From Ancylobacter rudongensis (GTDB taxonomy: Bacteria > Pseudomonadota > Alphaproteobacteria > Rhizobiales > Xanthobacteraceae): a stretch of DNA of 64,000 nt. Made by a program: the position numbers and the translations under genes. A model generated the notes under the pieces. It searched no databases. It was not told where the DNA came from and saw nothing but the letters and a program-made list of their open reading frames with translations. Where the stretch lies: NCBI RefSeq assembly GCF_900100155.1, contig NZ_FMTP01000001.1, positions 868,001-932,000 of the forward strand, written 5' to 3'. Positions 2,939 to 15,269 of the stretch are shown one piece after another. Every line of letters begins with the position of its first letter. The stretch's first letter is position 1.

Positions 2939-4396
2939 TCAGAGCGCCGCGAGTTCGGTGACGAACTTGGTGCGCAAAAAGGCGTCCAGCCCCTCAATGC
3001 CACTCTCGGAGCCGTAACCCGACTCGTTCACCCCGCCGAACGGCGTTTCCGGCGTGGAGACGGCCATGTGGTTGACGCCGACGAGGCCGGCGTCGAGCGC
3101 CTCCTCGGTGCGGGCCGCCAGCGCGCCGGAACGGGTGAAGACGAAGGAGGCGAGGCCATAGGGCAGCGCATTAGCGCGCTCGATTACCTCGTCAAAGCCC
3201 GAGAACGAGGTGAGCGGGGCGATCGGGCCGAAGGGCTCGTTTGACATGATCGCCGCATCGGCCGGCACGTCGGCGAGCACCGTCGGGGCGAAAAAGTGGC
3301 CCTGATTGCCGATGCGCGTGCCGCCCAGCTTCAGGCTCGCGCCCTTGGCGACGGCGTCGTTCACCAGTTCCTCCATCGCCGCGAGGCGGCGGCGACCGAT
3401 CATCGGCCCCATATTGGTGCCGGCGTCGAGACCGTTGCCAACCTTCAGCGTGGAGGCCAGCTCGACGAAGCGGGCGACGAAGGGCTGGTAGATCTGCTCC
3501 TGGATGAAGAAGCGCGTCGGCGAGGTGCAGACCTGGCCGGCATTGCGGAACTTGAACGCCACCAGCGTGCGCGCGGCCAGCTCCAGATCGGCATCGCCAT
3601 GGACGATGACCGGCGCATGGCCGCCCAGCTCCATGGTGCAGCGCTTGAGCGTATCGGCCGAAAGCCGGGCGAGTTCCTTGCCCACGGCGGTGGAGCCGGT
3701 GAGCGTCACCGCCTTCGGGATGGGCGAGGCCAGCAGCACGCGGCTGACATGGGCCGGCGCGCCGAACACCACATTCAGCACGCCCGCCGGCAGGCCCGCC
3801 TCCTGGAAGCAGCGGGCGATGGCGACCGCCGTGCCGGGGGTCTCTTCCGCCGGCTTGATGATGATCGAGCAGCCCGCGCCGAGCGCGCCAGTGATCTTGC
3901 GGATGACGTTGGAAGACGGGAAGTTCCAGGCGGCGAAGGCCACCACCGGGCCGACCGGCTCCTTCAGCACCATCTGGCGGACATTGGCCATGCGGGCCGG
4001 CACGATCCGTCCATAGGCGCGCTTGCCCTCCTCGGCATACCAGCGGGTGGCGTCGGCGGCGAACTGCACCTCCGGCACCGCTTCGCCGAGCGGCTTGCCG
4101 TTCTCCAGCGTCAGGATGCGCCCGATGCGCTCCTTGCGCGCCTCGATGAGATCGGCCGCCTTCATCATCAGCGTGTAGCGGGCCTGCGCGGTCATCGCCT
4201 TCCACACTTTGAAACCGCGCTGCGCGGCGTCGAGCGCGCGGGCGAGATCGGCGTCGGAAGCGTGCGGCACGGTGGCGAGCACCTCGCCCGTCGCCGGGTT
4301 TTCCAGCGCCTCGCTCTTGCCCTCGGAGCCCTGGCACCAGGTGCCGTCGATCAGCAGCTCGATGGTTTCATCATAGGTGGAAAGGTCGGTCATCAT
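2939..4396 (-). CDS. NAD(P)-dependent aldehyde dehydrogenase (semialdehyde dehydrogenase type)
   Basis: A 485-residue aldehyde dehydrogenase closest in character to the succinate-semialdehyde/alpha-ketoglutarate-semialdehyde group. Catalytic residues are visible: Asn158 in AAWNFPSS, Glu256 in MELGG and nucleophile Cys290 in GQVCT. It is the last gene of the minus-strand amino-acid island, next to a hydroxyproline epimerase gene. From that context I infer oxidation of 2-oxoglutarate semialdehyde to 2-oxoglutarate, the final step of D-hydroxyproline breakdown. Two ATG codons are adjacent (4396 and 4393); GGAG lies 3 or 6 nt before them, so the second may be the real start. A second aldehyde dehydrogenase lies three genes upstream, so the division of labour is unclear. 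Confidence 0.92.
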   Translation of the reverse strand: MMTDLSTYDETIELLIDGTWCQGSEGKSEALENPATGEVLATVPHASDADLARALDAAQRGFKVWKAMTAQARYTLMMKAADLIEARKERIGRILTLENGKPLGEAVPEVQFAADATRWYAEEGKRAYGRIVPARMANVRQMVLKEPVGPVVAFAAWNFPSSNVIRKITGALGAGCSIIIKPAEETPGTAVAIARCFQEAGLPAGVLNVVFGAPAHVSRVLLASPIPKAVTLTGSTAVGKELARLSADTLKRCTMELGGHAPVIVHGDADLELAARTLVAFKFRNAGQVCTSPTRFFIQEQIYQPFVARFVELASTLKVGNGLDAGTNMGPMIGRRRLAAMEELVNDAVAKGASLKLGGTRIGNQGHFFAPTVLADVPADAAIMSNEPFGPIAPLTSFSGFDEVIERANALPYGLASFVFTRSGALAARTEEALDAGLVGVNHMAVSTPETPFGGVNESGYGSESGIEGLDAFLRTKFVTELAAL

Positions 4397-4438: not shown

Positions 4439-5434
4439 TCAACGGCAGAGGAAGCCGTCAGGCAGGGGGTCGCCGTGGGCGAGCACGAAACGATGCTCGC
4501 CGGTGATATGGGCAAGGCCGATGATGTGCGGCCGGATGGCACCGGTCCGCCCGTCGACCGCGCGCGCGGTGGCGGTGAAATCGACGCCGAGAATGTTGCG
4601 GGTGCGGATCGGCTGGTCGAGGCGCAATTCGCCGCGCGCTACCATCTGCGCCAGCCTGGCGGAAGAGCCGGTGCCGCAGGGCGAGCGGTCGAACTTGTTG
4701 GATTCCAGCACCACCAGCTGGCGGCTCACCAGCCCCTCCTCGTCCGCCTCGGTCTCGTAGAACAGGATGGAATCGACCGGGCGCGCGGCGCCGGGCACAC
4801 GGCCCTCATTGATGCCGGCGTTGAGCGCCGCCTTCAGCGCGGCGCCGACGGCCATGGCATGGGACACGCCGGACGGCGCCAGCTCGACGCCTGCGGCGCG
4901 GGCGGCGATGAGGCCGTACCAGTTGCCGCCCCAGACCACGTCGGCGCTGACATTCAAACCGGCGGCGCTGACGGGCACATTGCAGGCGGCGACATGGGCC
5001 GGGACATTCTCGAAGGTGACGGCCGCGACCATCCCCTGTTCGCGGCGCACATGCACGGTGATGATGCCCGCCGGCACTTCCAGCGTGAAGGAGGAGTGCG
5101 GCGCGTCGGCCGGGCCGATCAGGCCCATATGATCGAGCGTGACCGCGAGCCCGATCGTCGCGTGGCCGCACATCTCAAGATATTTGTAGCTGCCGAGGAA
5201 GAAGGCGCCGAAATCCGCGCGCGTGCTCTCGGTCATGACAACGCCGACCATCGCCGCATGGCCGCGCGGCTCATGCAGCAGGAAGGTGCGCAGCGGATCG
5301 AAGCGGGCGCGGAAATCTTCTGCCCGCGCCTCCACCGTGTCGCCCTTGAGCGGCGGCACGCCGCCGGTGACGACGCGGGTGGGGTGGCCCGCCGTGTGGC
5401 TGTCGATGGTCGAGATCCAGCGCCTTATCGTCAT
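4439..5434 (-). CDS. 4-hydroxyproline 2-epimerase / proline racemase family
   Basis: A 331-residue cofactor-independent epimerase of the proline racemase family. Both catalytic cysteines are present: Cys89 in MCGHA and Cys253 in DRSPCGTG. The Cys/Cys pair indicates epimerase or racemase activity; the related trans-3-hydroxyproline dehydratases carry Thr at the second position. The N-terminal DSHTAGHPT motif is also present. The expected reaction is interconversion of trans-4-hydroxy-L-proline and cis-4-hydroxy-D-proline in the cytoplasm. It sits between a GMC oxidoreductase (14 bp upstream) and the terminal aldehyde dehydrogenase. It is the first of two active-looking family members in this island and differs clearly from the 8650-9657 copy, so it is not a recent duplicate. 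Confidence 0.92.
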   Translation of the reverse strand: MTIRRWISTIDSHTAGHPTRVVTGGVPPLKGDTVEARAEDFRARFDPLRTFLLHEPRGHAAMVGVVMTESTRADFGAFFLGSYKYLEMCGHATIGLAVTLDHMGLIGPADAPHSSFTLEVPAGIITVHVRREQGMVAAVTFENVPAHVAACNVPVSAAGLNVSADVVWGGNWYGLIAARAAGVELAPSGVSHAMAVGAALKAALNAGINEGRVPGAARPVDSILFYETEADEEGLVSRQLVVLESNKFDRSPCGTGSSARLAQMVARGELRLDQPIRTRNILGVDFTATARAVDGRTGAIRPHIIGLAHITGEHRFVLAHGDPLPDGFLCR

Positions 5435-5448
5435 GGCGGGCCCCTCTC

Positions 5449-7146
5449 CTAGCGGCCGGACTTGATGGTGTCGGCGATCTTCTCGCCGGCCATGATCGTC
5501 GTCAGCATGGTGTTGGCGCTGATGACAGCCGGCATGATCGAGGCATCGACCACCCGCAGCCCCTCGACGCCGATCAGGCGGGCGGCGCTGTCGACCACGG
5601 CGCGCGGATCGTCCGGGCGGCCGATGCGGCAGGTGCCGGAGGCGTGCCAGCTGCCGCAGGCATTCTCGCGGATCCAGGCGCGCAGCCCCTCGCGGTCGGC
5701 CATCATCTGCTTCGCCTTGAGGCCGGGGGTGATGACATTCTCGATCATCAGTTTGCGCGCCAGCGGCCCGGTGCCCATGATGCCGGCGGCCATCAGCGTC
5801 ATGAACCAGTTGGTGCGGCTCACCGCGCCGAGCTTGCGTACCCGCTCGGAGAAGGTGGCGGGGAAGATGCTCTCGATCACCCCGTCCATCGCCGGATCGG
5901 TGACGATGCCCCAGAGCCGGTGCATGCCGTCCTCCAGCCGCGCGAGGTCGCGCTCGTCGGAGAGCTGGCGGAAATTGACGAAGGGCGCGGTCGCGGCGTC
6001 GCGGCCCTGCAGCCGTACCTCACCGGTGGAATAGGGCCGGTTGACGCAGACCAGGATCGAGGCCAGCCGCCGGCCGAGCGGGTGCCAGGCCGCACGGTTG
6101 GAGGGCAGCACGAACATGTCGCCCGGCGTGGTCTCCGGCAGGCCGGACGAGTAGCGATAGCCGAGCTGGATGTGGCGGCGCTGGCTGGCCGGCAGGCGCG
6201 CGGCTTTCGGCAGATAGGCGGCGAAGGCCACCATCGGGTGGTCCTGCAGGTTCTGACCGACGCCGGGCCGGTCCGCCCGCACAGCGATGCCGAACTCCTT
6301 CAGATGCGCCGCCGGGCCGATGCCGGCGCGCAGCAGATGGGCGGGGGTCTGCAGCGCGCCGGTGGAGAGGATCACCTCCCGCGCCTTGAGCGTCACCGGC
6401 CCCTGCGGCCCCTGCGCCTTCAGCCCGGTGACGCGGCGGCCCTCGAACAGCAGCTCGGTCATCTCGGTTTCGGCGAGAATGGTGAGGTTCGGCCGGGCGC
6501 GCACCTCGCGGGTGAGATAGGCGCGGGCGGTGGAGACGCGCTGGCCGTCCACATTGTTGATGGTCATCGGGAAATAGCCGTCGTCGAAGACGCCGTTATG
6601 GTCCCGGATATTGGCCACGCCCTTCTTGTCGAGCACCTTCGCCACGGTCTTCGCGAAGGGCGACCAGTCCTTTTCCGGGATGCGGCGCAGCGGCAGCGGG
6701 CCGTAGCTGCCATGCAGCTGGCTGTCGCCATAATCGAGGTCGGTTTCCAGCTTGCGGAAATAGGGCAGCACATCGTCCCAGCCCCAGCCCTCGGCGCCGT
6801 CCTCGCGCCAGTGCTCATAGTCCCAGGGCACGCCGCGAAAGGCGAACTGGCCGTTGATCGAGGTGCCCCCGCCCATCACCCGCGCCTGCTCGTAGCGCCG
6901 CCCCGCCGCGCCGGGCTTGGGGTCGTTGAGGTGGATGGACAGGTTCTGCCAGTGATAGAGCCGGTTGAAATAGGCGACGATCGGATAGGCATCGAGCGTG
7001 TCGGCCGGCTCCGCGCCGGGCGGCGTGTCGCGCCCGGCCTCGATCAGCGCGACCTGGAGGTTCGAGGCTTCCGACAGCCGGCTCGCCAGCACGGCACCGG
7101 CCGCGCCGCCGCCGACGACGATGTAGTCATATGCGTGTTCGGACAT
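5449..7146 (-). CDS. GMC-family FAD-dependent oxidoreductase
   Basis: A 565-residue glucose-methanol-choline oxidoreductase, similar to choline or alcohol dehydrogenases. The N-terminus has the Rossmann FAD motif VGGGAAG (11-17) and an acidic end to the second strand (LIEAGRD). Near the C-terminus the catalytic pair His501 (GSWHASGT) and Asn545 (SANTM) is intact. The start at 7146 is chosen because the FAD fold begins there; the frame stays open further upstream inside the aldehyde dehydrogenase gene, whose stop lies 4 bp away. In a classic hydroxyproline cluster this slot would hold a DadA/DAAO-type D-hydroxyproline dehydrogenase; none is present. GMC enzymes usually oxidise alcohols, so the substrate may be a hydroxyl group. 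That is inference. Confidence 0.92.
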   Translation of the reverse strand: MSEHAYDYIVVGGGAAGAVLASRLSEASNLQVALIEAGRDTPPGAEPADTLDAYPIVAYFNRLYHWQNLSIHLNDPKPGAAGRRYEQARVMGGGTSINGQFAFRGVPWDYEHWREDGAEGWGWDDVLPYFRKLETDLDYGDSQLHGSYGPLPLRRIPEKDWSPFAKTVAKVLDKKGVANIRDHNGVFDDGYFPMTINNVDGQRVSTARAYLTREVRARPNLTILAETEMTELLFEGRRVTGLKAQGPQGPVTLKAREVILSTGALQTPAHLLRAGIGPAAHLKEFGIAVRADRPGVGQNLQDHPMVAFAAYLPKAARLPASQRRHIQLGYRYSSGLPETTPGDMFVLPSNRAAWHPLGRRLASILVCVNRPYSTGEVRLQGRDAATAPFVNFRQLSDERDLARLEDGMHRLWGIVTDPAMDGVIESIFPATFSERVRKLGAVSRTNWFMTLMAAGIMGTGPLARKLMIENVITPGLKAKQMMADREGLRAWIRENACGSWHASGTCRIGRPDDPRAVVDSAARLIGVEGLRVVDASIMPAVISANTMLTTIMAGEKIADTIKSGR

Positions 7147-7150
7147 GTTC

Positions 7151-8626
7151 TCAGCCGTGATTGAGCCAGACGGTCTTGAAGCGCAGGAAGCCCTCAAGCC
7201 CCGCGCGCCCCATTTCCTTGCCGAAGCCGGAGCCGGCGAAGCCGCCCTGCGGGGTGGCGAAATCGGGCTGGCGGCCATGGCCGTTGACCCAGACCGTGCC
7301 GGCGTTGAGGCGGGCGGGCAGCGCCAAGGCCTTGGCGGCGCTGGTTGTGTAGAGGCTGGCGGCGAGCGCGTAGCTGGGATGGTTGGCCATCGCCAGCGCC
7401 TCGTCCTCGTCGTCATAGGCGTAGACGGAGAGCACCGGGCCGAAGAATTCCTCGCGGAAGCCGACCGAGCTGTCGGGCACGCCGGCGAGCACGGTCGGCT
7501 CGACATAGGCGCCCGAATTCATATTGGCGCAGCGCCGGCCGCCGGTAAGCACGGTGGCGCCATCGGCCACCGTTTCGGCCAGCATGCGGTCGATGCGCGC
7601 CGCCTGCTTTTCGCTGATGATCGGCGGCAGGGTCGCGCGCGTGTCCCAGGTGGGGCCGGCGACGCGCGCCTGCGCGATGCCGATGATCTTGTCGGTGAGT
7701 TCGTCCAGCAGCCGGCGCGGCGCGATCAGCCGCGTGCCGGCGGTGCAGACCTGGCCGGCATTGGCGAGGAACCCGCCGGCGATGGTGGCGGCGAGCGCGT
7801 CGAGATCGTGCGCGTCGTCCATGACAAGCTGGGGCGTCTTGCCCCCGAGTTCCAGCGTGAGCGGCTTGGTGCCGGTCATCGCCGCATCCGCCATCACCCG
7901 CGCGCCGGTGGCGGAGGAGCCGGTGAAGGTGATCTTGCCCGTGAGCGGGTGGCGCACCAGCGCCGAGCCGGTGGCGCCCGCGCCCTGCACCACATTGAAC
8001 AGGCCGGCGGGGAGCCCCGCCTCGATCGCGAGCTCGGCGATCATGACCGCCGAGGAGGGCGTCAGCTCGGAGGGCTTCAGCACCACCGCATTGCCGGTCG
8101 CCAGCGCCGGCGCCGACTTCCAGATCGCGTTGATCGCGGGGAAGTTGAACGGGGCGATGGAGGCGATGACGCCATAGGGTTCGGGCTTGAGGAAGGTGGT
8201 GCCACTGTTCGCCCCGGCGATCAGCGAGCCCTCGATCTTGTCGGCCCATTCGGCGAAATAGCGCACGGCGCCGGCCGCGCGGACGAGGTCGCGGGTGATG
8301 ACATCGGCCACCGGCCGGGTCGTCGTCGCCGCTTCCAGCCGCCCGAGCTCGGTGCGCCGCGCGTCGATGAGGTCGGCCCATGCCTTCAGCACCCGCGCCC
8401 GCTCCAGCGCCGTAGCGGTGGCCCAGCCGGAGGCGGTGCGGGTCTTGGCGGCGCTGCGCATCGCCGCGTCCACCAGTGCCTCGTCCGCCGCGCGGATGGT
8501 GCCGATCGCCGCGCCGTCGGACGGGCGGATGAGCGCGATTTCCGCGCCGTCGCCGGCGACGCGTCGCCCGTCGATCAGGTGATCGGTGATCGCGGCGACG
8601 CCATTCGGGTCGAAATCGTGGGACAT
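7151..8626 (-). CDS. NAD(P)-dependent aldehyde dehydrogenase (second copy in island)
   Basis: A 491-residue aldehyde dehydrogenase with Asn161 (APFNFPA), Glu259 (LELGGK) and nucleophile Cys294 (GQVCT). It is clearly different from the dehydrogenase at 2939-4396. It lies between the second epimerase and the GMC oxidoreductase with only 4 bp to the next gene, so translation may be coupled. The pairing with a GMC enzyme is typical of alcohol to aldehyde to acid sequences, but it could also be the second alpha-ketoglutarate semialdehyde dehydrogenase. The substrate cannot be fixed from sequence alone. Confidence 0.92.
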   Translation of the reverse strand: MSHDFDPNGVAAITDHLIDGRRVAGDGAEIALIRPSDGAAIGTIRAADEALVDAAMRSAAKTRTASGWATATALERARVLKAWADLIDARRTELGRLEAATTTRPVADVITRDLVRAAGAVRYFAEWADKIEGSLIAGANSGTTFLKPEPYGVIASIAPFNFPAINAIWKSAPALATGNAVVLKPSELTPSSAVMIAELAIEAGLPAGLFNVVQGAGATGSALVRHPLTGKITFTGSSATGARVMADAAMTGTKPLTLELGGKTPQLVMDDAHDLDALAATIAGGFLANAGQVCTAGTRLIAPRRLLDELTDKIIGIAQARVAGPTWDTRATLPPIISEKQAARIDRMLAETVADGATVLTGGRRCANMNSGAYVEPTVLAGVPDSSVGFREEFFGPVLSVYAYDDEDEALAMANHPSYALAASLYTTSAAKALALPARLNAGTVWVNGHGRQPDFATPQGGFAGSGFGKEMGRAGLEGFLRFKTVWLNHG

Positions 8627-8649: not shown

Positions 8650-9657
8650 TCAGACGCCCGTCAGGCGGAAGCCCTGCTGGAACGGGTCATGGGGGTCGAG
8701 GAAGAAGTTGAAGCTGCCGGTGAGATAGGCCGAGCCGGTGACGGTGCAGCGGATCGCCGGCAGGTCGCCGACGGTGGCCTCGCCATGGATCTCGCCGGTG
8801 AAGACGGTGTCGAGGATGCCGGCATGGCGGAAGGTGTCGCCGACCTTCAGCTCGCCCTTGCCGTGCAGCATCGCCATGCGCGAGGCGGTGCCGGTGCCGC
8901 AGGGCGAGCGGTCGATCACGGTGGGCGGGCAGACCACGACGTTCTTGCCGTCGAAGCGCACGCCATCGCCGTCGCCGACGATCTCGATCTGGTAGATCTC
9001 GTTGACATGGGCGAGCGTGGGGTGCTGGACCGGAATGTCCTTCAGCCCGGCGCGCAGTTCCGCCGCCGCGCTCACCAGCGCCCAGGCATTGTCGGTGGTC
9101 AGCTCAAGGCCGAGGTCGGAGCCCTTGACGATGAGATAGAAATCGCCGCCGAAGGCGATGTCGGCGCGCACCTTGCCGAAGCTCTTGGTCTCGACGACCA
9201 CGTCGCGCTGGTAGAGGAAGCTCAGCGGCATCTCCAGCGTGACGGAGACGGCGCGGCCGTTCTCCACCTTCACCCGCGCCGGAACGACGCCCGCCGGGGT
9301 GTCGAGCCGCACCAGCGTCTCGCCTTCCTGCGCAGTGATGTAGCCCGCTTCCACCGCGATGGTGGCGACCGCCATGGCGCAGTGGCCGCACATAGGCGGA
9401 TAGGTATCGGGCTCAAGGATGAGCATGCCGATATCGGCGTCGGGCGAGCAGGCTTCGGTGAGCACGGCGGCCGGCATGTTGAACGAGCCGCGCGGCTCGA
9501 ACAGCACGAGCTGGCGCAGCCAGTCGCGGCTCATCAGGTCGGCGCGCTTTTCCACCATGGTGGCGCCGCGGATCGGCCCGAAGCCAGACGTGATGAGGCG
9601 CAGCGGGCAGCCGGCGGTGTGGGAATCGATGCCCTGGATGATGCGGGTCGAGCGCAT
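8650..9657 (-). CDS. 4-hydroxyproline epimerase / proline racemase family (second copy)
   Basis: A 335-residue proline racemase family enzyme. Catalytic Cys90 (MCGHC) and Cys253 (DRSPCGTG) are both present, with DSHTAG at the N-terminus and the family aspartate in GGDFY. This is the Cys/Cys form expected of epimerases rather than the Cys/Thr dehydratases. It lies 12 bp downstream of the DapA-type gene in the same direction. It is distant from the 4439-5434 copy, which suggests two different imino-acid substrates (for example 4-hydroxyproline and proline or 3-hydroxyproline); that split is inference. Confidence 0.92.
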   Translation of the reverse strand: MRSTRIIQGIDSHTAGCPLRLITSGFGPIRGATMVEKRADLMSRDWLRQLVLFEPRGSFNMPAAVLTEACSPDADIGMLILEPDTYPPMCGHCAMAVATIAVEAGYITAQEGETLVRLDTPAGVVPARVKVENGRAVSVTLEMPLSFLYQRDVVVETKSFGKVRADIAFGGDFYLIVKGSDLGLELTTDNAWALVSAAAELRAGLKDIPVQHPTLAHVNEIYQIEIVGDGDGVRFDGKNVVVCPPTVIDRSPCGTGTASRMAMLHGKGELKVGDTFRHAGILDTVFTGEIHGEATVGDLPAIRCTVTGSAYLTGSFNFFLDPHDPFQQGFRLTGV

Positions 9658-9669
9658 GATGATGTCCGT

Positions 9670-10578
9670 TCAGGCGAGCGTGGTGATGAGGGAGGAGACA
9701 TCGGCCTCGGCGAGGATCTTCGCCACGCTGGCCTGCTGCGCGTCGGTGAAGGGCAGCAGCGGCTCGCGCGGAATGCCGACCGGCTGGCCGAGCGCGTTCA
9801 TCGCCGCCTTGATGCCGGCATAGAAGCTGCCGCTCTTGAAGCAGCGATAGATGGCGAACAGCGCCGGCTCCAGACGGTCCGCCGTGGCGGCATCGCCCGA
9901 GGCGCAGGCGTCGAAATAGGCGCGCACGAGGCGGCCAGAGAGCTGGTGCGCCATGGCGACGACGCCGACCACGCCGAGCGGCAGGGAGGAGCGGATCATC
10001 GTCTCATAACCGACAAACACCGCCAGCTCGCCCTTCACCTTCTGGCACAACTCGGCAACCTGCTGGATGTCGCCGGAGGAATCCTTGATGGCAACGACGT
10101 TCGGAATCTCGGCCAGCCGGGCGACGAGATCGGGCGTGATGTTGACGCCGATGCGCACCGGGCTGTTGTAGAGCATGACCGGCAGGCCGGAGGCGGCGCA
10201 GATGCGGCGGTAGAAATGCTCGGCCTCGCGCAGGTCCGGCTTGGCGTAGATCGGCGGCAAAGCGAGGATGCCGTCGCAGCCCGTCGTCTCGGCGGCCTTG
10301 GTCAGTTCCAGCACCACGTCGGTGTGCAGGTCCGAGACGCCCGCCAGCACCGGCACGCGGCCGGCGGCGACCTTCACCGTCGCCTCGAACAGCTTCACCC
10401 GCTCGGCGACGCTCATGGCGTAGAACTCGCCGGTCGAGCCGCAGACGATGAGGCCATCGGCGCCATTGGCGATGTTCGCCTCGGCCAGTTCCTCGAAGCG
10501 CGGGAAGTCGATGGGGCCTTCGGCCAGGAAGGGGGTGACGAGGACACTGTGGATGCCCTGCCAGTTGGTCTTGGTCAT
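9670..10578 (-). CDS. DapA-family lyase, likely 1-pyrroline-4-hydroxy-2-carboxylate deaminase
   Basis: A 302-residue class I aldolase-fold protein of the dihydrodipicolinate synthase/N-acetylneuraminate lyase family. The Schiff-base lysine is Lys165 in VVAIKDSSGD, the catalytic Tyr137 lies in LYNSP, and the GSTGE substrate-carboxylate loop is at 47-51. The start at 10578 is chosen because the family fold begins at WQGIHSVLVTPF; the open frame extends 23 codons upstream without conservation. Between an epimerase gene and an amino-acid importer, the best guess is deamination of 1-pyrroline-4-hydroxy-2-carboxylate to 2-oxoglutarate semialdehyde rather than lysine biosynthesis. Confidence 0.88.
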   Translation of the reverse strand: MTKTNWQGIHSVLVTPFLAEGPIDFPRFEELAEANIANGADGLIVCGSTGEFYAMSVAERVKLFEATVKVAAGRVPVLAGVSDLHTDVVLELTKAAETTGCDGILALPPIYAKPDLREAEHFYRRICAASGLPVMLYNSPVRIGVNITPDLVARLAEIPNVVAIKDSSGDIQQVAELCQKVKGELAVFVGYETMIRSSLPLGVVGVVAMAHQLSGRLVRAYFDACASGDAATADRLEPALFAIYRCFKSGSFYAGIKAAMNALGQPVGIPREPLLPFTDAQQASVAKILAEADVSSLITTLA

Positions 10579-10685
10579 GTGCGGTCTCGGCGTTTGAACG
10601 GGGGTGTCGGGACAGAGCGGGGGCGTGGCACGCGCGGGGGCATGCATCGCCGGTCAGGTGGTTCGGGGAAGCGCCGGCCGGCGCG

Positions 10686-11507
10686 TCAGGTCTGCAGCAG
10701 CGGACGCATCAGTTCGGCGGTGGCATGGAAGCGGTTGACGAAGGTGCGCACGCGCTCATTGGTGGGGTGGAGCAGCACTTCCTGTGGGGTGCCCTGCGCG
10801 CAGATGGCGCCTTGATCCAGGAACACCACGCGGGTGGCGACCTCCAGCGCGAAGCCCAGCTCATGGGTGACGACCAGCATGGTCATCCCCTCGCGGGCCA
10901 GCGTGATCATTGTGTTGAGCACCTCGCCGACCAGTTCCGGGTCGAGCGCGGAGGTCGGCTCGTCGAACAGCATCAGCGAGGGGCGCATATTGAGGGCGCG
11001 GGCGATGGACACACGCTGCTTCTGCCCGCCCGAGAGCCGGCCGGGCATGCGGTCGGCAAATTCCGCCATGCCGACCTTGGCCAGAAGGTCGAGGGCGCGG
11101 GCGCGGTTGCTGGCGTCGTCCTCGCCCAGCACGGTGCGCGGGCCTTCCATCACATTGGCCAGCACGTTCATGTGCGGAAAGAGATTGAACTGCTGGAACA
11201 CCATGCCGACGCGGCTGCGCATGGCGGCCACCTCGCGGCCGCCGATGCGGGCATTGTCGTGCCCGTCCGCCGCCCGGTCGAAGATCGGCGAACCGTCGAT
11301 GGCGATCCGGCCGGAGCTGGGATGTTCTAGCAGGTTGACGCAGCGCAGCAGCGTCGTCTTGCCGGAGCCGGACGAGCCGAGCAACGCCACCACTTCGCCG
11401 GGATAGACGGTGAGGTCGATGCCCTTGAGCACTTCGTGCGAGCCATAGGACTTGCGCACCTGGCTCACCTCGACCAGCGGCGTGGCATCGGCGGGGGAAC
11501 GGGTCAT
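10686..11507 (-). CDS. Polar amino-acid ABC transporter ATPase
   Basis: A 273-residue ATPase of the GlnQ/HisP type. Walker A GSSGSGKT is at 44-51, the Q-loop at FQQFNLFPH, the signature LSGGQ at 158-162, Walker B LMLFDEP at 178-184 and the switch His in VVTHE. It drives uptake of a polar amino acid with the neighbouring permease and binding-protein genes. Within the hydroxyproline-type island the likely ligand is a proline derivative (inference). Confidence 0.95.
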   Translation of the reverse strand: MTRSPADATPLVEVSQVRKSYGSHEVLKGIDLTVYPGEVVALLGSSGSGKTTLLRCVNLLEHPSSGRIAIDGSPIFDRAADGHDNARIGGREVAAMRSRVGMVFQQFNLFPHMNVLANVMEGPRTVLGEDDASNRARALDLLAKVGMAEFADRMPGRLSGGQKQRVSIARALNMRPSLMLFDEPTSALDPELVGEVLNTMITLAREGMTMLVVTHELGFALEVATRVVFLDQGAICAQGTPQEVLLHPTNERVRTFVNRFHATAELMRPLLQT

Positions 11508-11520
11508 GGTTCGCGCCCTC

Positions 11521-12168
11521 TCACTGGGAGTTCATCTCGAGCCGGCGCGCGAGATAGTTGGAGGGAATGAGGATGACGAGGAAGATGATGCCGACCACCG
11601 TGTAGACTTCCATCGGCCGGTAGGTGAACGACGACACGTAGCTCGCCTGGTAGAGCAGGTCCGGCACCGTCAGCACCGAGAGCAGCGTGGTGTTCTTCAT
11701 CTGGATGATGGTCTGCCCCGCCAGCGGCGGGATCATCTGGCGGAAGGCCTGCGGCAGGATGATGCGGCGCATCGCCTGCCAGGAGCGCATGCCAAGCGCT
11801 TTGGCGGCATCGGCCTGTCCATGGTCGAGCGACTGGATGCCGGCGCGCAGGATTTCGGCATAGTAGGCGCCGCCATAGAGGCTGAGGGCGAGAATGCCGG
11901 CCGCCTGCTTGCTGATGTTGATGCCGGCGAAGATCGGCAGCGCGTAATAGCTCCACAGCAGCCAGACCAGCAGCGGCACGTTGCGGAAGAACTCGACGAA
12001 CAGCCGCCCGACGACGCGCAGCGCCTTGATCGGCGACAGCTGCACCAGCGCGATCATCAGCCCGATGATCAGGCCGAGAACGCAGGTGATCACCGTGTAT
12101 TCGAGGGTGACGACCAGTCCCCAGGCGAACAGATGGGCGTTTTGGGTGATGACGGACCAGTCGAACAC
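11521..12168 (-). CDS. Polar amino-acid ABC transporter permease
   Basis: A 215-residue inner-membrane permease of the HisM/GlnP type. Hydrophobic segments are visible at about 13-40, 58-82, 86-106, 150-170 and 187-205. The EAA coupling loop appears as DAAKALGMRSWQAMRRIILPQA. Only one permease gene is present, so the transporter presumably uses a homodimeric membrane core. It lies between the binding-protein gene and the ATPase gene on the same strand. Confidence 0.94.
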   Translation of the reverse strand: MFDWSVITQNAHLFAWGLVVTLEYTVITCVLGLIIGLMIALVQLSPIKALRVVGRLFVEFFRNVPLLVWLLWSYYALPIFAGINISKQAAGILALSLYGGAYYAEILRAGIQSLDHGQADAAKALGMRSWQAMRRIILPQAFRQMIPPLAGQTIIQMKNTTLLSVLTVPDLLYQASYVSSFTYRPMEVYTVVGIIFLVILIPSNYLARRLEMNSQ

Positions 12169-12252: not shown

Positions 12253-13128
12253 TCAGAAGTTGAATTCGGCCGGCAGCACGGAGAGGTCGATGCCGCGCGC
12301 CTCGAAGGCCTTGCGCAGCTTGCCCTGGGCGAGACCGAGGGCGCGCTGCTGGTTCACCCAGTTGGTGAGCCAGTTCTCGTAGCCCTCATTGCCTTCCTCG
12401 CGGCGCATGCCGATGGTCGCCGGGTTGAGCAGCATCGGGCTCGGCAGAATGATCTGGCCGCTGATCGCCTTGGAGACGTCGATGGCGTCGAACACGGCGA
12501 GGATCATCGCGTCGGCGCGGTTGGCCTGCAGCTCCATGATGCCGAGCGGGCGGTCTTCCACCACGATGATGTTGGCCTTGGGGGTCAGCGCCTCGGCGAC
12601 GACCTGCATCGTGCCGCCCTTCTGCACCACGATACGCACCGACGGATCGTTCAGCTCGGCCCAGGTCTTCTTGGCGAAGCCCGGCTTGGTGACGATGGCC
12701 CAGGCATCGGTGAACAGCGGCACGCTGAGATAATCCACCACGAGGCCGCGCTTCGGGTTCGGGTTGAGGCCGAAGGCGATGTCGATCTTGTTGGCCTGGA
12801 AGTCGGCGGCGAGGTTGCCCCAGGTGGTCTCGACCGGCACGACCTTGACGTTCAGCAGCGTGGCGATGTCGTTGGCCCATTCGACGTAGAAGCCGCTCCA
12901 TTCGCCGGTGTTGCGGTCGCGGATATAGCCGGGCTCCTCGCCGATCATGACCGGCACGCGCAGCTCGCCGCTCTTGCGGATGCGGTCGAGCACGAGGTTG
13001 GGATCGGCGGCATAGGCGGACTGGAAGGTCGAGAGCGCCAGCACGACGGCGCCCACGAACATCAGGACGAAAGAGCGGAAAAGCGAGCCGGCGGCCGGGG
13101 ACGGCCGGATGGACGAGGCGGTGATCAT
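12253..13128 (-). CDS. Amino-acid ABC transporter periplasmic binding protein
   Basis: A 291-residue extracellular solute-binding protein of family 3. A long N-terminal signal segment (hydrophobic 19-36) ends at SAYA, with probable cleavage near residue 41. The mature part has the two-lobe type II fold, with features such as GEWSGFYVEWANDIA and DIAFGLNPNPKR. It supplies substrate to the permease and ATPase encoded just downstream, and it is the first structural gene after the regulator. The ligand is unknown; the context suggests hydroxyproline or a related imino acid. Confidence 0.92.
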   Translation of the reverse strand: MITASSIRPSPAAGSLFRSFVLMFVGAVVLALSTFQSAYAADPNLVLDRIRKSGELRVPVMIGEEPGYIRDRNTGEWSGFYVEWANDIATLLNVKVVPVETTWGNLAADFQANKIDIAFGLNPNPKRGLVVDYLSVPLFTDAWAIVTKPGFAKKTWAELNDPSVRIVVQKGGTMQVVAEALTPKANIIVVEDRPLGIMELQANRADAMILAVFDAIDVSKAISGQIILPSPMLLNPATIGMRREEGNEGYENWLTNWVNQQRALGLAQGKLRKAFEARGIDLSVLPAEFNF

Positions 13129-13170: not shown

Positions 13171-15066
13171 CTATCGCAGGAAGCCGCTGCCGAGGGGATC
13201 GCCCACTTCCTGGATGAGCGTCGCCACGGCCTTGAGATGCGCGCGTCCCGTGATCCGGGTCGTGACCGCGACGGCGCCACCGGCACCATGGGTCGTCGTG
13301 ATGAGTTCGCCCGCGAGGTGCCCCCCGAACAGGCTGACGGCTTCCAGCCGCGCGCCTGGCGCCGCCGCGCCCTGGGCACCACGCAGCGCCAGCAGGCAGG
13401 CGAGGCCCGCCACGCCGGGAGAGCGGTCGAATTTCTGGCGATCAATCGCGAGGAACTGACGCACGGCGCCGCCCTCGCCCGCGCCATGGAACAGCACCGC
13501 ATCGACCGCCGGCTGCGCGCCGCGCCGGCGCGGCAGCGCCTCATTGAGATGGCGGCGCAGCGCGTCGCCGACGGCGAGCAGATGATCGATGCCGCTGACG
13601 TCCAGCCTCAGCCCGGCCGCGTCGGCATCGACCAGCGCGTAGCAGTCGCCGCACATGGCGATGGCGACGTCGAGGTCGTGCCCGCCGACGCGGGCATGCC
13701 GGCCGGTTTCCGCGACGATGGCGGGCGGCATTTCCAGCGCGATGGCGTCCGCGTCGCCCTCGACCCCGACATGCACGGTGAGGATGCCGTCCGGCACCTC
13801 GATTGTGAAGCGCGGGTGACGCGACAGACGGCCAAGCGCGCGCAGCGCCGCCGTGTAGCCCATGATCGCGTGGCCGCACAGGCCGGGATAGCCATAGGAC
13901 GAGATGAAGAAAGCGCCGAAATCGGCGGCGCTGGACGCCACCGGCACGAGGCCGAAGGCGCCGGAATGCCCGCGCGGCTCATGCAGCAGCATCGGCCGCA
14001 AACTGTCATAGCGCTCGGCGAACTGGCGGGACTTACCGGCGACGCTGTCGGCGTCGAGGCCTTGCAGCGGCTCGATGAGAATATGGGTGGGATGGCCCTC
14101 GGTGTGGGTTTCGATGACGCGGTAGGTGCGCGCGCCCTGCGGCAGCTCCAGGCTCAGCGCCCCCTCGCCGATGCCGCCGCCGAGGCCGGCGCCCAGCCCG
14201 AGCCGCCGGTCGGTCTTCTCGAAACTCATGGTCGACAGGCGGTCGCTGTCGGTGTTGATCCACAGCACCTTGGCCGGCACGTTGCCGGTGTTGCGCCAGC
14301 GATGGGCGATGCGGCTGTTGAAATAGGCGCCGTCGCCGGGGTTCAGCACCTCGGCATCGCGGTCGGCCAGAGCCAGCTCCAGCGAGCCTTCGAGCACATA
14401 GATCAGCTCCTCGCCCTCATGCGCGTAGAAGCCGTCGCTCTCGCGTTCGGGGTCGATGGTCCAGACCTCAGCGTCCATCAGGCGCTGCGAAACGGTGAGC
14501 TGCTCGATGGTGACGCCGGGCCCGAAGGACCCGACGATGCGCCCCTGCCCGTGCCGCACCACCGGAAAGTCGCGCCCCTTGGTGCCGCCCAGCAGTTCCG
14601 CCAGCGTGCGGCCGAACACTTCGGCGATGGCATTGAGCCGAGCGGGCGAGAGGAAGGCCACGCCGCGCTCGAACATGCTCAGATGCGAGGAGGCGATGTC
14701 CGTGCGCTCCGAAAGCTCGCGCAGCGACATGCCGGCCTCCTGCCGCAGGCTGCGGACGCGCGCGCCGAGATGATTGAAGGCGGCAACCGGCGCCGTCTCG
14801 CTCTCGGGGGCCGCGCTCGCCTCTTCCTCGCTTTCGAGGAAGCGGCGGATGCCCGACAGGCTCTGCCCCTCGACCCGGCGCATGCGGTCGATGCGGCGGA
14901 TGCGCTCGATATCCGCCTCGCCATAGGAACGGTGGCCGCCGGAAGACTTGGTGGATGTGAGAAGCCCCTGGTTCTCCCAGGAGCGGATGGTCGAGACGGC
15001 GACACCCGTGACCTTGGCCACGTGACCAATCGAAAAGGGGAAGCGGGTGGCGGCCGTCTTGGACAT
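13171..15066 (-). CDS. MerR-XRE-cupin-proline racemase fusion regulator
   Basis: A 631-residue four-part protein. Residues about 10-77 are a MerR-type winged HTH (VAVSTIRSWENQGLL, GGHRSY). Residues 100-157 are an XRE HTH (LRELSERTDIASSHLSMFE). Residues 185-275 are a cupin (HEGEELIYVLEG, LNPGDGAYF). Residues 313-631 span the entire proline racemase fold. The first catalytic Cys is kept (Cys397, LCGHA), but the second site reads DRSPGVAG (547-554) where active enzymes have DRSPCGTG, so the second catalytic Cys is Gly551. I infer a dead enzyme used as a ligand sensor for the imino acid handled by the downstream genes. It heads the minus-strand island and is preceded by a strong inverted repeat. 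The frame is uninterrupted across all four domains. Confidence 0.93.
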   Translation of the reverse strand: MSKTAATRFPFSIGHVAKVTGVAVSTIRSWENQGLLTSTKSSGGHRSYGEADIERIRRIDRMRRVEGQSLSGIRRFLESEEEASAAPESETAPVAAFNHLGARVRSLRQEAGMSLRELSERTDIASSHLSMFERGVAFLSPARLNAIAEVFGRTLAELLGGTKGRDFPVVRHGQGRIVGSFGPGVTIEQLTVSQRLMDAEVWTIDPERESDGFYAHEGEELIYVLEGSLELALADRDAEVLNPGDGAYFNSRIAHRWRNTGNVPAKVLWINTDSDRLSTMSFEKTDRRLGLGAGLGGGIGEGALSLELPQGARTYRVIETHTEGHPTHILIEPLQGLDADSVAGKSRQFAERYDSLRPMLLHEPRGHSGAFGLVPVASSAADFGAFFISSYGYPGLCGHAIMGYTAALRALGRLSRHPRFTIEVPDGILTVHVGVEGDADAIALEMPPAIVAETGRHARVGGHDLDVAIAMCGDCYALVDADAAGLRLDVSGIDHLLAVGDALRRHLNEALPRRRGAQPAVDAVLFHGAGEGGAVRQFLAIDRQKFDRSPGVAGLACLLALRGAQGAAAPGARLEAVSLFGGHLAGELITTTHGAGGAVAVTTRITGRAHLKAVATLIQEVGDPLGSGFLR

Positions 15067-15074
15067 CTCGATCT

Positions 15075-15117
15075 ACATACCATCTATAGAAATAGCGAAC
15101 ATGTGCAGACGGTATGT
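15075..15117. promoter_or_regulatory. Inverted repeat upstream of the fusion regulator, likely operator
   Basis: Arms ACATACCATCT (15075-15085) and AGACGGTATGT (15107-15117) are inverted copies with one mismatch, separated by 21 bp (centre-to-centre about 32 bp, three helical turns). The repeat begins 9 bp upstream of the regulator start at 15066. I infer autoregulation and/or control of the island; no second copy was seen upstream of the binding-protein gene. Confidence 0.6.
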
Positions 15118-15269
15118 GGATTTATTGAACGAGTCAATCGGGTCCTATGGATCGTGGACCCCGCTGGGTTGGTGAGCCCAACGGGGCCTCCGAAGCCGCT
15201 GACGTCGCTCGATTGTTCTTGATTTGTTCGGCGCCTTGGCGCCAGAGTGCGGCAACTCGGGAGTCGCGC

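Follow-up and report, generated by a model that had tools for sequence, protein, structure and literature searches.

Within a 64,000-nucleotide stretch of the Ancylobacter rudongensis genome (contig NZ_FMTP01000001.1, positions 868,001 to 932,000; hereafter the window), we detected a minus-strand gene that joins a MerR helix-turn-helix (HTH), an XRE-type HTH, a cupin and a proline racemase domain in one chain. We consider it probable that the encoded protein is an autoregulated one-component repressor, relieved by a proline-like ligand bound in the former racemase active site. The fusion protein would control its own ten-gene catabolic operon: its MerR–XRE–cupin half would bind a composite operator that lies partly within the operon promoter and partly just past it (15071-15137), most likely repressing that promoter, the C-terminal domain, a former pathway racemase/epimerase, would bind a proline-like pathway compound, and ligand binding there would alter the DNA-binding state. 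From comparative sequence analysis we infer that the genes are co-transcribed, that the protein regulates its own promoter and does so by repression rather than activation, that it binds a ligand, and to which class that ligand belongs. The original prediction for this gene, made from the DNA letters, was that a racemase fold had been recruited as a sensor, a proposal now partly supported by the fusion itself, its promoter–operator, the loss of a catalytic cysteine, pocket conservation and purifying selection.

The reading frame opens with an ATG and runs for 631 codons with no internal stop, as originally described, and all four predicted domains score above their curated Pfam cut-offs. The racemase match covers positions 1-324 of the 325 in profile PF05544 at 155 bits against a cut-off of 27, and both this match and a structure model place the domain in the proline racemase superfamily as a fold family. 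The N-terminal HTH is of the MerR family, and an HTH_3 domain followed by Cupin_2 in one chain is the arrangement of XRE–cupin regulators. Using an AlphaFold2 (AF2) model of the fusion built from 12 sequences, we found that the racemase part matches racemase, epimerase and dehydratase structures of the family with VIA Z scores of 30.9-35.5 among the 20 best matches (6hjg_B: Z 35.5, root-mean-square deviation 2.9, 323 residues aligned). Model residues 308-631 superpose on proline racemase and hydroxyproline epimerase structures; the racemase domain filled the VIA and Foldseek lists, so the structure comparison describes that part of the chain.

Full-length fusions were found in 19 distinct genomes of several alphaproteobacterial families, the window's genome included, and encode 19 distinct proteins. 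Genome searches with E limits of 1e-30 to 1e-80 recovered the fusion in 10 of 296 genomes in the family sample (all 10 among its 30 same-genus genomes, including the window's own), 9 of 397 in the order sample (2 already counted) and 2 of 385 in the class sample (1 already counted). In a further class sample of 389 genomes, a fusion that has both catalytic cysteines, used as query, returned two full-length fusions, both known. Named carriers include A. vacuolatus, A. amanitiformis, A. tetraedralis, A. polymorphus and Xanthobacteraceae bacterium 501b, which make up five Ancylobacter-group records, as well as Hyphomicrobiales bacterium UR115, which is the class-sample genome, and Hoeflea sp. YIM 152468, the only one of these to add a new protein, the others matching proteins already counted. 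Samples around individual carriers (1/5, 2/3, 2/5, 1/20, 1/87 and 1/1) yielded carriers that were all already known, and a tblastn search of 72,556 plasmid records gave no match covering at least 80% of the query in one place. This patchy occurrence suggests that the complete operon was passed on horizontally or has been lost more than once.

The recurrence of the full-length gene in 19 genomes excludes chance, frameshift and misassembly, and with 19 assemblies in agreement we rejected an assembly or frameshift artefact. It is hardly credible that the two halves are separate proteins, produced by an assembly error or from an internal start. A methionine does occur where the linker between cupin and racemase domain begins, around residue 280, in 17 of the 19 fusions, but a single frame of at least 629 codons is open in every one of them, the linker holds to 41 residues in 17 and 37 in two, and one fusion (L049) has no methionine at the linker head while another (L048) has it elsewhere.

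Two-base enzymes of the family have two facing catalytic cysteines, or a serine and a cysteine. The window protein retains Cys397 in the motif LCGH, as predicted, and has Gly551 in DRSPGVAG at the second site; the two stand-alone relatives in its operon, RAC1 and RAC2, both carry MCGH and DRSPCGTG. With the second proton donor/acceptor lost, two-base racemisation should not occur. The original description of the domain as dead is right for two-base racemisation only, since a single cysteine or serine, with threonine opposite, suffices in dehydratases of the family according to the part of a published account that we consulted (PMC4113996). Cys397 is kept in all 19 fusions. Glycine at the second site is present in 17, and two fusions keep both cysteines (L048 in genome G380 and L049 in genome G378), an outcome that the original prediction had counted against itself. 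Scores of the window domain fall below the NCBIfam racemase/epimerase equivalog cut-offs (114.8/556, 106.7/450, 103/376 and 75.9/442 bits), which says little because RAC1 and RAC2 are likewise below them. In one and the same Pro_racemase scan, the two-Cys domains scored 251 and 254 bits versus 162-204 for six Gly domains.

All 17 Gly fusions have further changes in the second motif, which takes the form DRSPGV[A/G/T][G/A]: Gly552 is replaced by Val in every one and Thr553 by Ala or Gly in 13, while His399 and Asp547 are retained throughout. These changes bear on the possibility that the protein is a trigger enzyme, in which two-Cys fusions would be working racemases or epimerases, the Gly form would carry out single-base chemistry such as dehydration, and regulation would be coupled to turnover. 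The family dehydratases lend this idea some plausibility, as does G380, where a two-Cys fusion heads the only fusion operon seen without RAC2, so that the fused domain there may be the pathway enzyme; a stand-alone gene of the window's genome (L003; MCGH, DRSPGGTG) indicates that the Cys-to-Gly change also occurs outside regulators. We nevertheless judge it unlikely, because Gly552 and Thr553 are kept in all aligned stand-alone racemase-type rows, two DRSPGGTG rows included, and because RAC2 is present as a separate gene in all 17 Gly genomes, with DRSPCGTG seen in 16 and only the first half of the gene covered by the Hoeflea DNA. Scores against dehydratase models also lie far under the cut-offs (106.4/540 and 80.7/550 bits), as do those against the racemase/epimerase models.

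Stand-alone family members with DRSPGGTG led us to reject the Cys-to-Gly change as sole proof of a dead enzyme. One of these, L003 (L086:8120-9127, contig C17 of the window's genome), is a racemase-family gene with no fusion involved, and its Cys/Gly pair has no mention in the portions consulted of the literature on the family. The other, L075 (contig C21 of G380), has MCGA in place of MCGH, so both the second cysteine and the conserved histidine are gone.

Phylogenies of the racemase-family domains suggest when the cysteine was lost. In a tree of 61 domains (62 were collected and one partial row dropped), all fusions formed one clade (100/98) in which the two-Cys pair was sister to the Gly clade (100/100). 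A second tree of 48 rows, built without four distant and ten RAC1 rows and with a solo row, L091, added, agreed on the fusion clade and the sister pair and needs one Cys-to-Gly change. As the two-Cys pair is a sister branch, parsimony on the tree places the fusion first and a single cysteine loss after it, and the fusion probably began as an active enzyme-regulator. The 48-row tree grouped the fusions with solo racemases of other operons (100/99), and we therefore rejected an origin from the operon's own RAC2. This grouping hinges on a distant outgroup and on several long branches, and RAC2 does not form a single clade in that tree; the 61-row tree left the branching order of RAC2, the fusions and the solo group undecided. 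L091 as sole sister of the fusions was not favoured either (p-AU 0.056, log-likelihood 18.8 lower).

In the 48-row tree, the fused domain is closest to five stand-alone racemases from other operons. At two of these loci (L018 on L083, and L091), the racemase gene directly follows a gene for a GntR-type regulator, labelled GntR-FCD from a Pfam result for L083 and by eye from the sequence for L091, and lies ahead of the same genes for substrate-binding protein, permease, ATPase, aldehyde dehydrogenase and GMC oxidoreductase. The place of the fused gene is thus one at which some relatives have regulator and racemase genes side by side, which is a lead on its origin and not proof. At L084 and L085 the gene for the substrate-binding protein is transcribed divergently, and the surroundings of L063 are different.

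The racemase domain is not decaying: it is under purifying selection and its pocket positions are largely invariant. The ratio of nonsynonymous to synonymous substitution rates (dN/dS) of the racemase part was 0.09-0.24 in all six pairs computed, of ten possible among close relatives, and fell between the values for RAC1 and RAC2 in five of the six. We defined a pocket set of 15 positions from published binding motifs and sites (MCGH, DRSPCGTG, and TlProR 62, 221 and 241), with motif positions and ligand-site residues taken from an alignment in the consulted part of PMC4364671. Eleven of these 15 positions are invariant in the 17 Gly fusions versus 73 of 297 other columns, with a Fisher p of 1.6e-4 that is indicative only, as the columns share phylogeny and the Gly551 site is itself among the 15; in RAC2 the same comparison gave 15/15 versus 114/306. 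Relative to other RAC2-like domains, the Gly fusions have seven fixed differences, of which five (369, 394, 541, 551 and 552) fall within pocket motifs or next to them. The pocket of the Gly fusions thus looks re-specified rather than decaying, and the altered loop of the second motif (Gly552, Thr553) suggests that the ligand, or its pose, may differ from that of the ancestral substrate.

Several observations weigh against a ligand-sensing racemase domain. The replacement of Gly552 by Val and the frequent loss of Thr553 alter a loop with a motif that, in relatives, is in contact with the ligand. Both cysteines are kept in two of the 19 fusions, so sensing need not require a dead site, and the longer stem of the Gly clade (1.14 vs 0.42 for the two-Cys pair in the 48-row tree) is also expected under relaxed constraint. 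Confidence in the AF2 model is moderate overall, with a predicted local distance difference test (pLDDT) score of 67.7, racemase blocks mostly at 70-93, a weak N-terminal half and values below 50 at pocket loop 363-368 and at the C-terminus. Finally, among the four domains conservation is highest in the cupin, with 36 of 87 columns invariant across the 19 fusions compared with 61 of 316 in the racemase domain, and the cupin could be the sensor, as presumably in its stand-alone relatives.

If the cupin were the sensor, the racemase domain would serve as a dimerisation or scaffold module without a ligand, and the MerR–XRE–cupin proteins that lack a racemase domain in rhizobia and others would be natural counterparts. 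We regard this as improbable, since a scaffold need not keep Cys397, His399, Asp547, Phe371 and the jointly replaced pocket residues, all of which are invariant in 17 sequences, six of them only 44-51% identical to the window protein in the racemase domain. Sensing by the former racemase pocket, which we prefer, also underlies a broader proposal to which we would give roughly even chances: that the fusions are the first regulator class with a proline-racemase-fold sensor, caught at successive stages. G380 would hold an active enzyme-regulator that is its operon's only racemase of its type, G378 an active fusion beside a separate enzyme, and 17 genomes, the window's own among them, a sensor whose pocket is re-specified and whose second cysteine is gone, while the two DNA-binding domains would read two halves of one promoter-embedded operator. 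A series from G380 (two Cys, no RAC2) through G378 (two Cys, RAC2) to the 17 Gly genomes is plausible, but its first two stages are each represented by a single genome.

Upstream of the fusion gene, we found a conserved promoter with an embedded candidate operator (Table 1). A TTGAC -35 box, 17 nt and then TAnnnT are present in all 19 upstream regions; the search pattern for the box included TTCAA a few bases further on, and all 19 contain it. Among 12 representatives, spacer positions TTCAA.A.ATC are invariant (8-12, 14 and 16-18, in a numbering that starts with 0 at the initial T of the -35 box). Over the 40 nt that precede this box, every column stays at or below 0.75 bits. The promoter-operator pattern has one site in the window and none in 100 shuffles. 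The predicted operator has two parts, a TTGA-N5-TCAA half and a ATCNACATACC half, and half of the TTGA-N5-TCAA palindrome is the promoter itself. An inverted repeat, placed at 15075-15117 in the original prediction, does lie there with 15-nt arms that bracket the transcription start expected from the -10 box, but the conserved DNA begins with the promoter. L038, L039, L044 and L046 differ in that their second copy has the same orientation as the first and forms a direct repeat (TTCAA..A..C.ACAT, by eye from the alignment).

Sigma-70 promoters normally tolerate a spacer of 17 nt, and MerR activators typically, though not in every member, act on promoters with a long spacer of 19-20 nt that they untwist. 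All 19 fusion promoters, as aligned, have 17 nt. Sites in the spacer and after the transcription start would suit a repressor, and two HTH domains and a two-part predicted operator would fit each other; any assignment of one HTH domain to one part would be conjecture. No convincing shared operator emerged when 11 loci, five with stand-alone MerR–XRE–cupin genes, were scanned for the pattern. The conserved promoter was absent from the output of a generic promoter scan, which required four of six matches per hexamer, whereas TACCGT has three.

The fusion is the first gene after this promoter and, as originally proposed, heads the operon, which holds true in all 17 genomes examined. Gene order (fusion, substrate-binding protein, permease, ATP-binding protein, DHDPS/DapA enzyme, RAC1, ALDH1, GMC, RAC2, ALDH2) is shared by the loci of these 17 of the 19 genomes, with RAC2 missing in one and with the Hoeflea locus (L039) ending inside RAC2, so that its last gene lies beyond; in the remaining two genomes, G219 and G227, RAC2 is present about 8 kb from the fusion. 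Intergenic gaps in the window operon are 4 to 84 nt, taking the GMC start at 7146. The exception for RAC2 is G380, where it was not found between GMC and the last gene and where the Pro_racemase profile matches five times in the genome, to RAC1, to the fusion and to three copies with high scores that lie on other contigs.

Table 1 Position of the fusion gene, its domains and key residues, its promoter region and the operon genes in the window
Feature	Coordinates	Strand	Basis or remark
Regulator-racemase fusion gene, 631 aa	13171..15066	-	Open reading frame, orthologues
MerR_1 HTH, residues 11-79	14830..15036	-	Pfam PF13411, E 3.3e-20
XRE-type HTH (HTH_3), residues 104-158	14593..14757	-	Pfam PF01381, E 8.3e-13
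Cupin (Cupin_2), residues 201-270	14257..14466	-	Pfam PF07883, E 6.9e-17
Proline racemase domain (Pro_racemase), residues 317-629	13180..14118	-	Pfam PF05544, E 3.2e-45
Cys397, first catalytic Cys	13876..13878	-	Kept in 19/19 fusions
Gly551, at second catalytic Cys position	13414..13416	-	Gly in 17/19 fusions, Cys in 2/19
Conserved promoter with candidate operator: TTGACT, 17 nt, TACCGT; spacer has TTCAATAAATC	15109..15137	-	
TTGA-N5-TCAA palindrome over -35 box	15125..15137	-	19/19 upstream regions, by eye from alignment
Inverted repeat, upstream arm ATCCACATACCGTCT (minus strand)	15107..15121	-	87% complementary, 21 nt between arms
Inverted repeat, downstream arm AGATGGTATGTAGAT (minus strand)	15071..15085	-	Between expected transcription start and ATG
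ABC transporter substrate-binding protein (family 3)	12253..13128	-	Domain search
ABC transporter permease	11521..12168	-	Domain search
ABC transporter ATP-binding protein	10686..11507	-	Domain search
DHDPS (dihydrodipicolinate synthase)/DapA superfamily enzyme	9670..10647	-	Profile searches
RAC1, stand-alone proline racemase family enzyme, both Cys	8650..9657	-	Profile search, alignment
ALDH1, aldehyde dehydrogenase	7151..8626	-	Profile search
GMC oxidoreductase, 565 aa	5449..7146	-	Profile search, homologues
RAC2, stand-alone proline racemase family enzyme, both Cys, 39% identical to fused domain	4439..5434	-	
ALDH2, aldehyde dehydrogenase	2939..4396	-	Profile search

We do not assign the operon to hydroxyproline catabolism: the DHDPS-type enzyme and the aldehyde dehydrogenases fit, but the GMC oxidoreductase, whose best solved relatives are 5-hydroxymethylfurfural oxidase entries, stands at the step where the published pathway, as far as described in the part consulted, uses a D-amino-acid-oxidase type enzyme (PMC4113996). 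RAC1 is the most conserved operon enzyme among those compared (82-89% identity in eight distant carriers) and has the unusual motifs EPRGSFNMP and MCGHCAM. Operons of the two-Cys fusions (L056; L057/L071) end in another type of aldehyde dehydrogenase, 34-35% identical to ALDH2 of the window. Two values were disregarded in these comparisons: the one listed as RAC2 for G380, which stems from the fused domain, and the one for ALDH2 of Hoeflea, whose locus stops short of that gene.

The N-terminal module and enzyme-derived sensors are already known, and it is the combination of domains and the sensor fold that appear new by comparison with described families. In keeping with the original statement that no such regulator was known, we found no published description of a MerR/XRE/cupin/racemase chain in the titles and abstract openings found by searching open-access journal papers. 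PutA-type trigger enzymes are proline-pathway enzymes that also regulate their pathway; PutA remains enzymatically active, and both its DNA-binding domain and its enzyme folds are different from those of the fusion. The nearest structure by sequence in the proline racemase superfamily, which includes proline racemase, 4-hydroxyproline epimerase and trans-3-hydroxyproline dehydratase, is the proline racemase 6j7c at 29% identity; the window domain shares the fold, the MCGH/DRSP motifs and PF05544 with these enzymes and differs in its fusion to a regulator, its glycine for the second cysteine and its altered DRSPCGTG. MocR/GabR regulators such as EnuR, with a GntR winged HTH and an aminotransferase-fold sensor, offer an analogy as one-component regulators with an enzyme-fold sensor. 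In the consulted part of PMC8739950, a whole metabolic enzyme fold without enzymatic activity serves in this group to affect DNA binding, and EnuR binds a fragment with a sigma-70 type promoter. The fusion differs in having MerR and XRE domains, an extra cupin and an unrelated enzyme fold, and the window protein has no Pfam match to a GntR winged HTH or a fold-type-I aminotransferase domain.

If our interpretation is correct, an unrelated fold would join the short list of enzymes turned transcriptional sensors. Fusions with both cysteines and with one lost would be living intermediates, making the step from enzyme to sensor testable with few proteins. The regulator would also serve as a genetically encoded sensor of proline-like compounds and offer a way into an operon of racemases, a GMC oxidoreductase, a DHDPS-type enzyme and aldehyde dehydrogenases.

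The original view that MerR, XRE and cupin domains rarely share a chain did not hold, as this module recurs without the racemase. The plasmid search matched 646 records, and 24 of the 40 rows listed align only with approximately residues 1-272 to 1-288 of the fusion; two of these matches, on inspection, were single annotated genes of 267 aa, and the one scanned contained exactly MerR_1, an HTH_3-type domain and Cupin_2. Stand-alone regulators of this kind in rhizobia (e.g., L064, 267 aa) have the same three N-terminal domains in the same order, with 37% identity over residues 11-272, and lack the racemase domain. On rhizobial plasmids, L064 and L065 lie beside genes for an electron-transfer flavoprotein, purU, folD and an FAD-dependent oxidoreductase, a neighbourhood that may be a demethylation operon. 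A non-fused relative of the fused racemase (L084:9776-11245) lies in an operon with a gene of the D-amino-acid oxidase (DAO) family, near a GntR-aminotransferase regulator of the MocR type, and is thus a case of a different enzyme-derived regulator for a similar operon.

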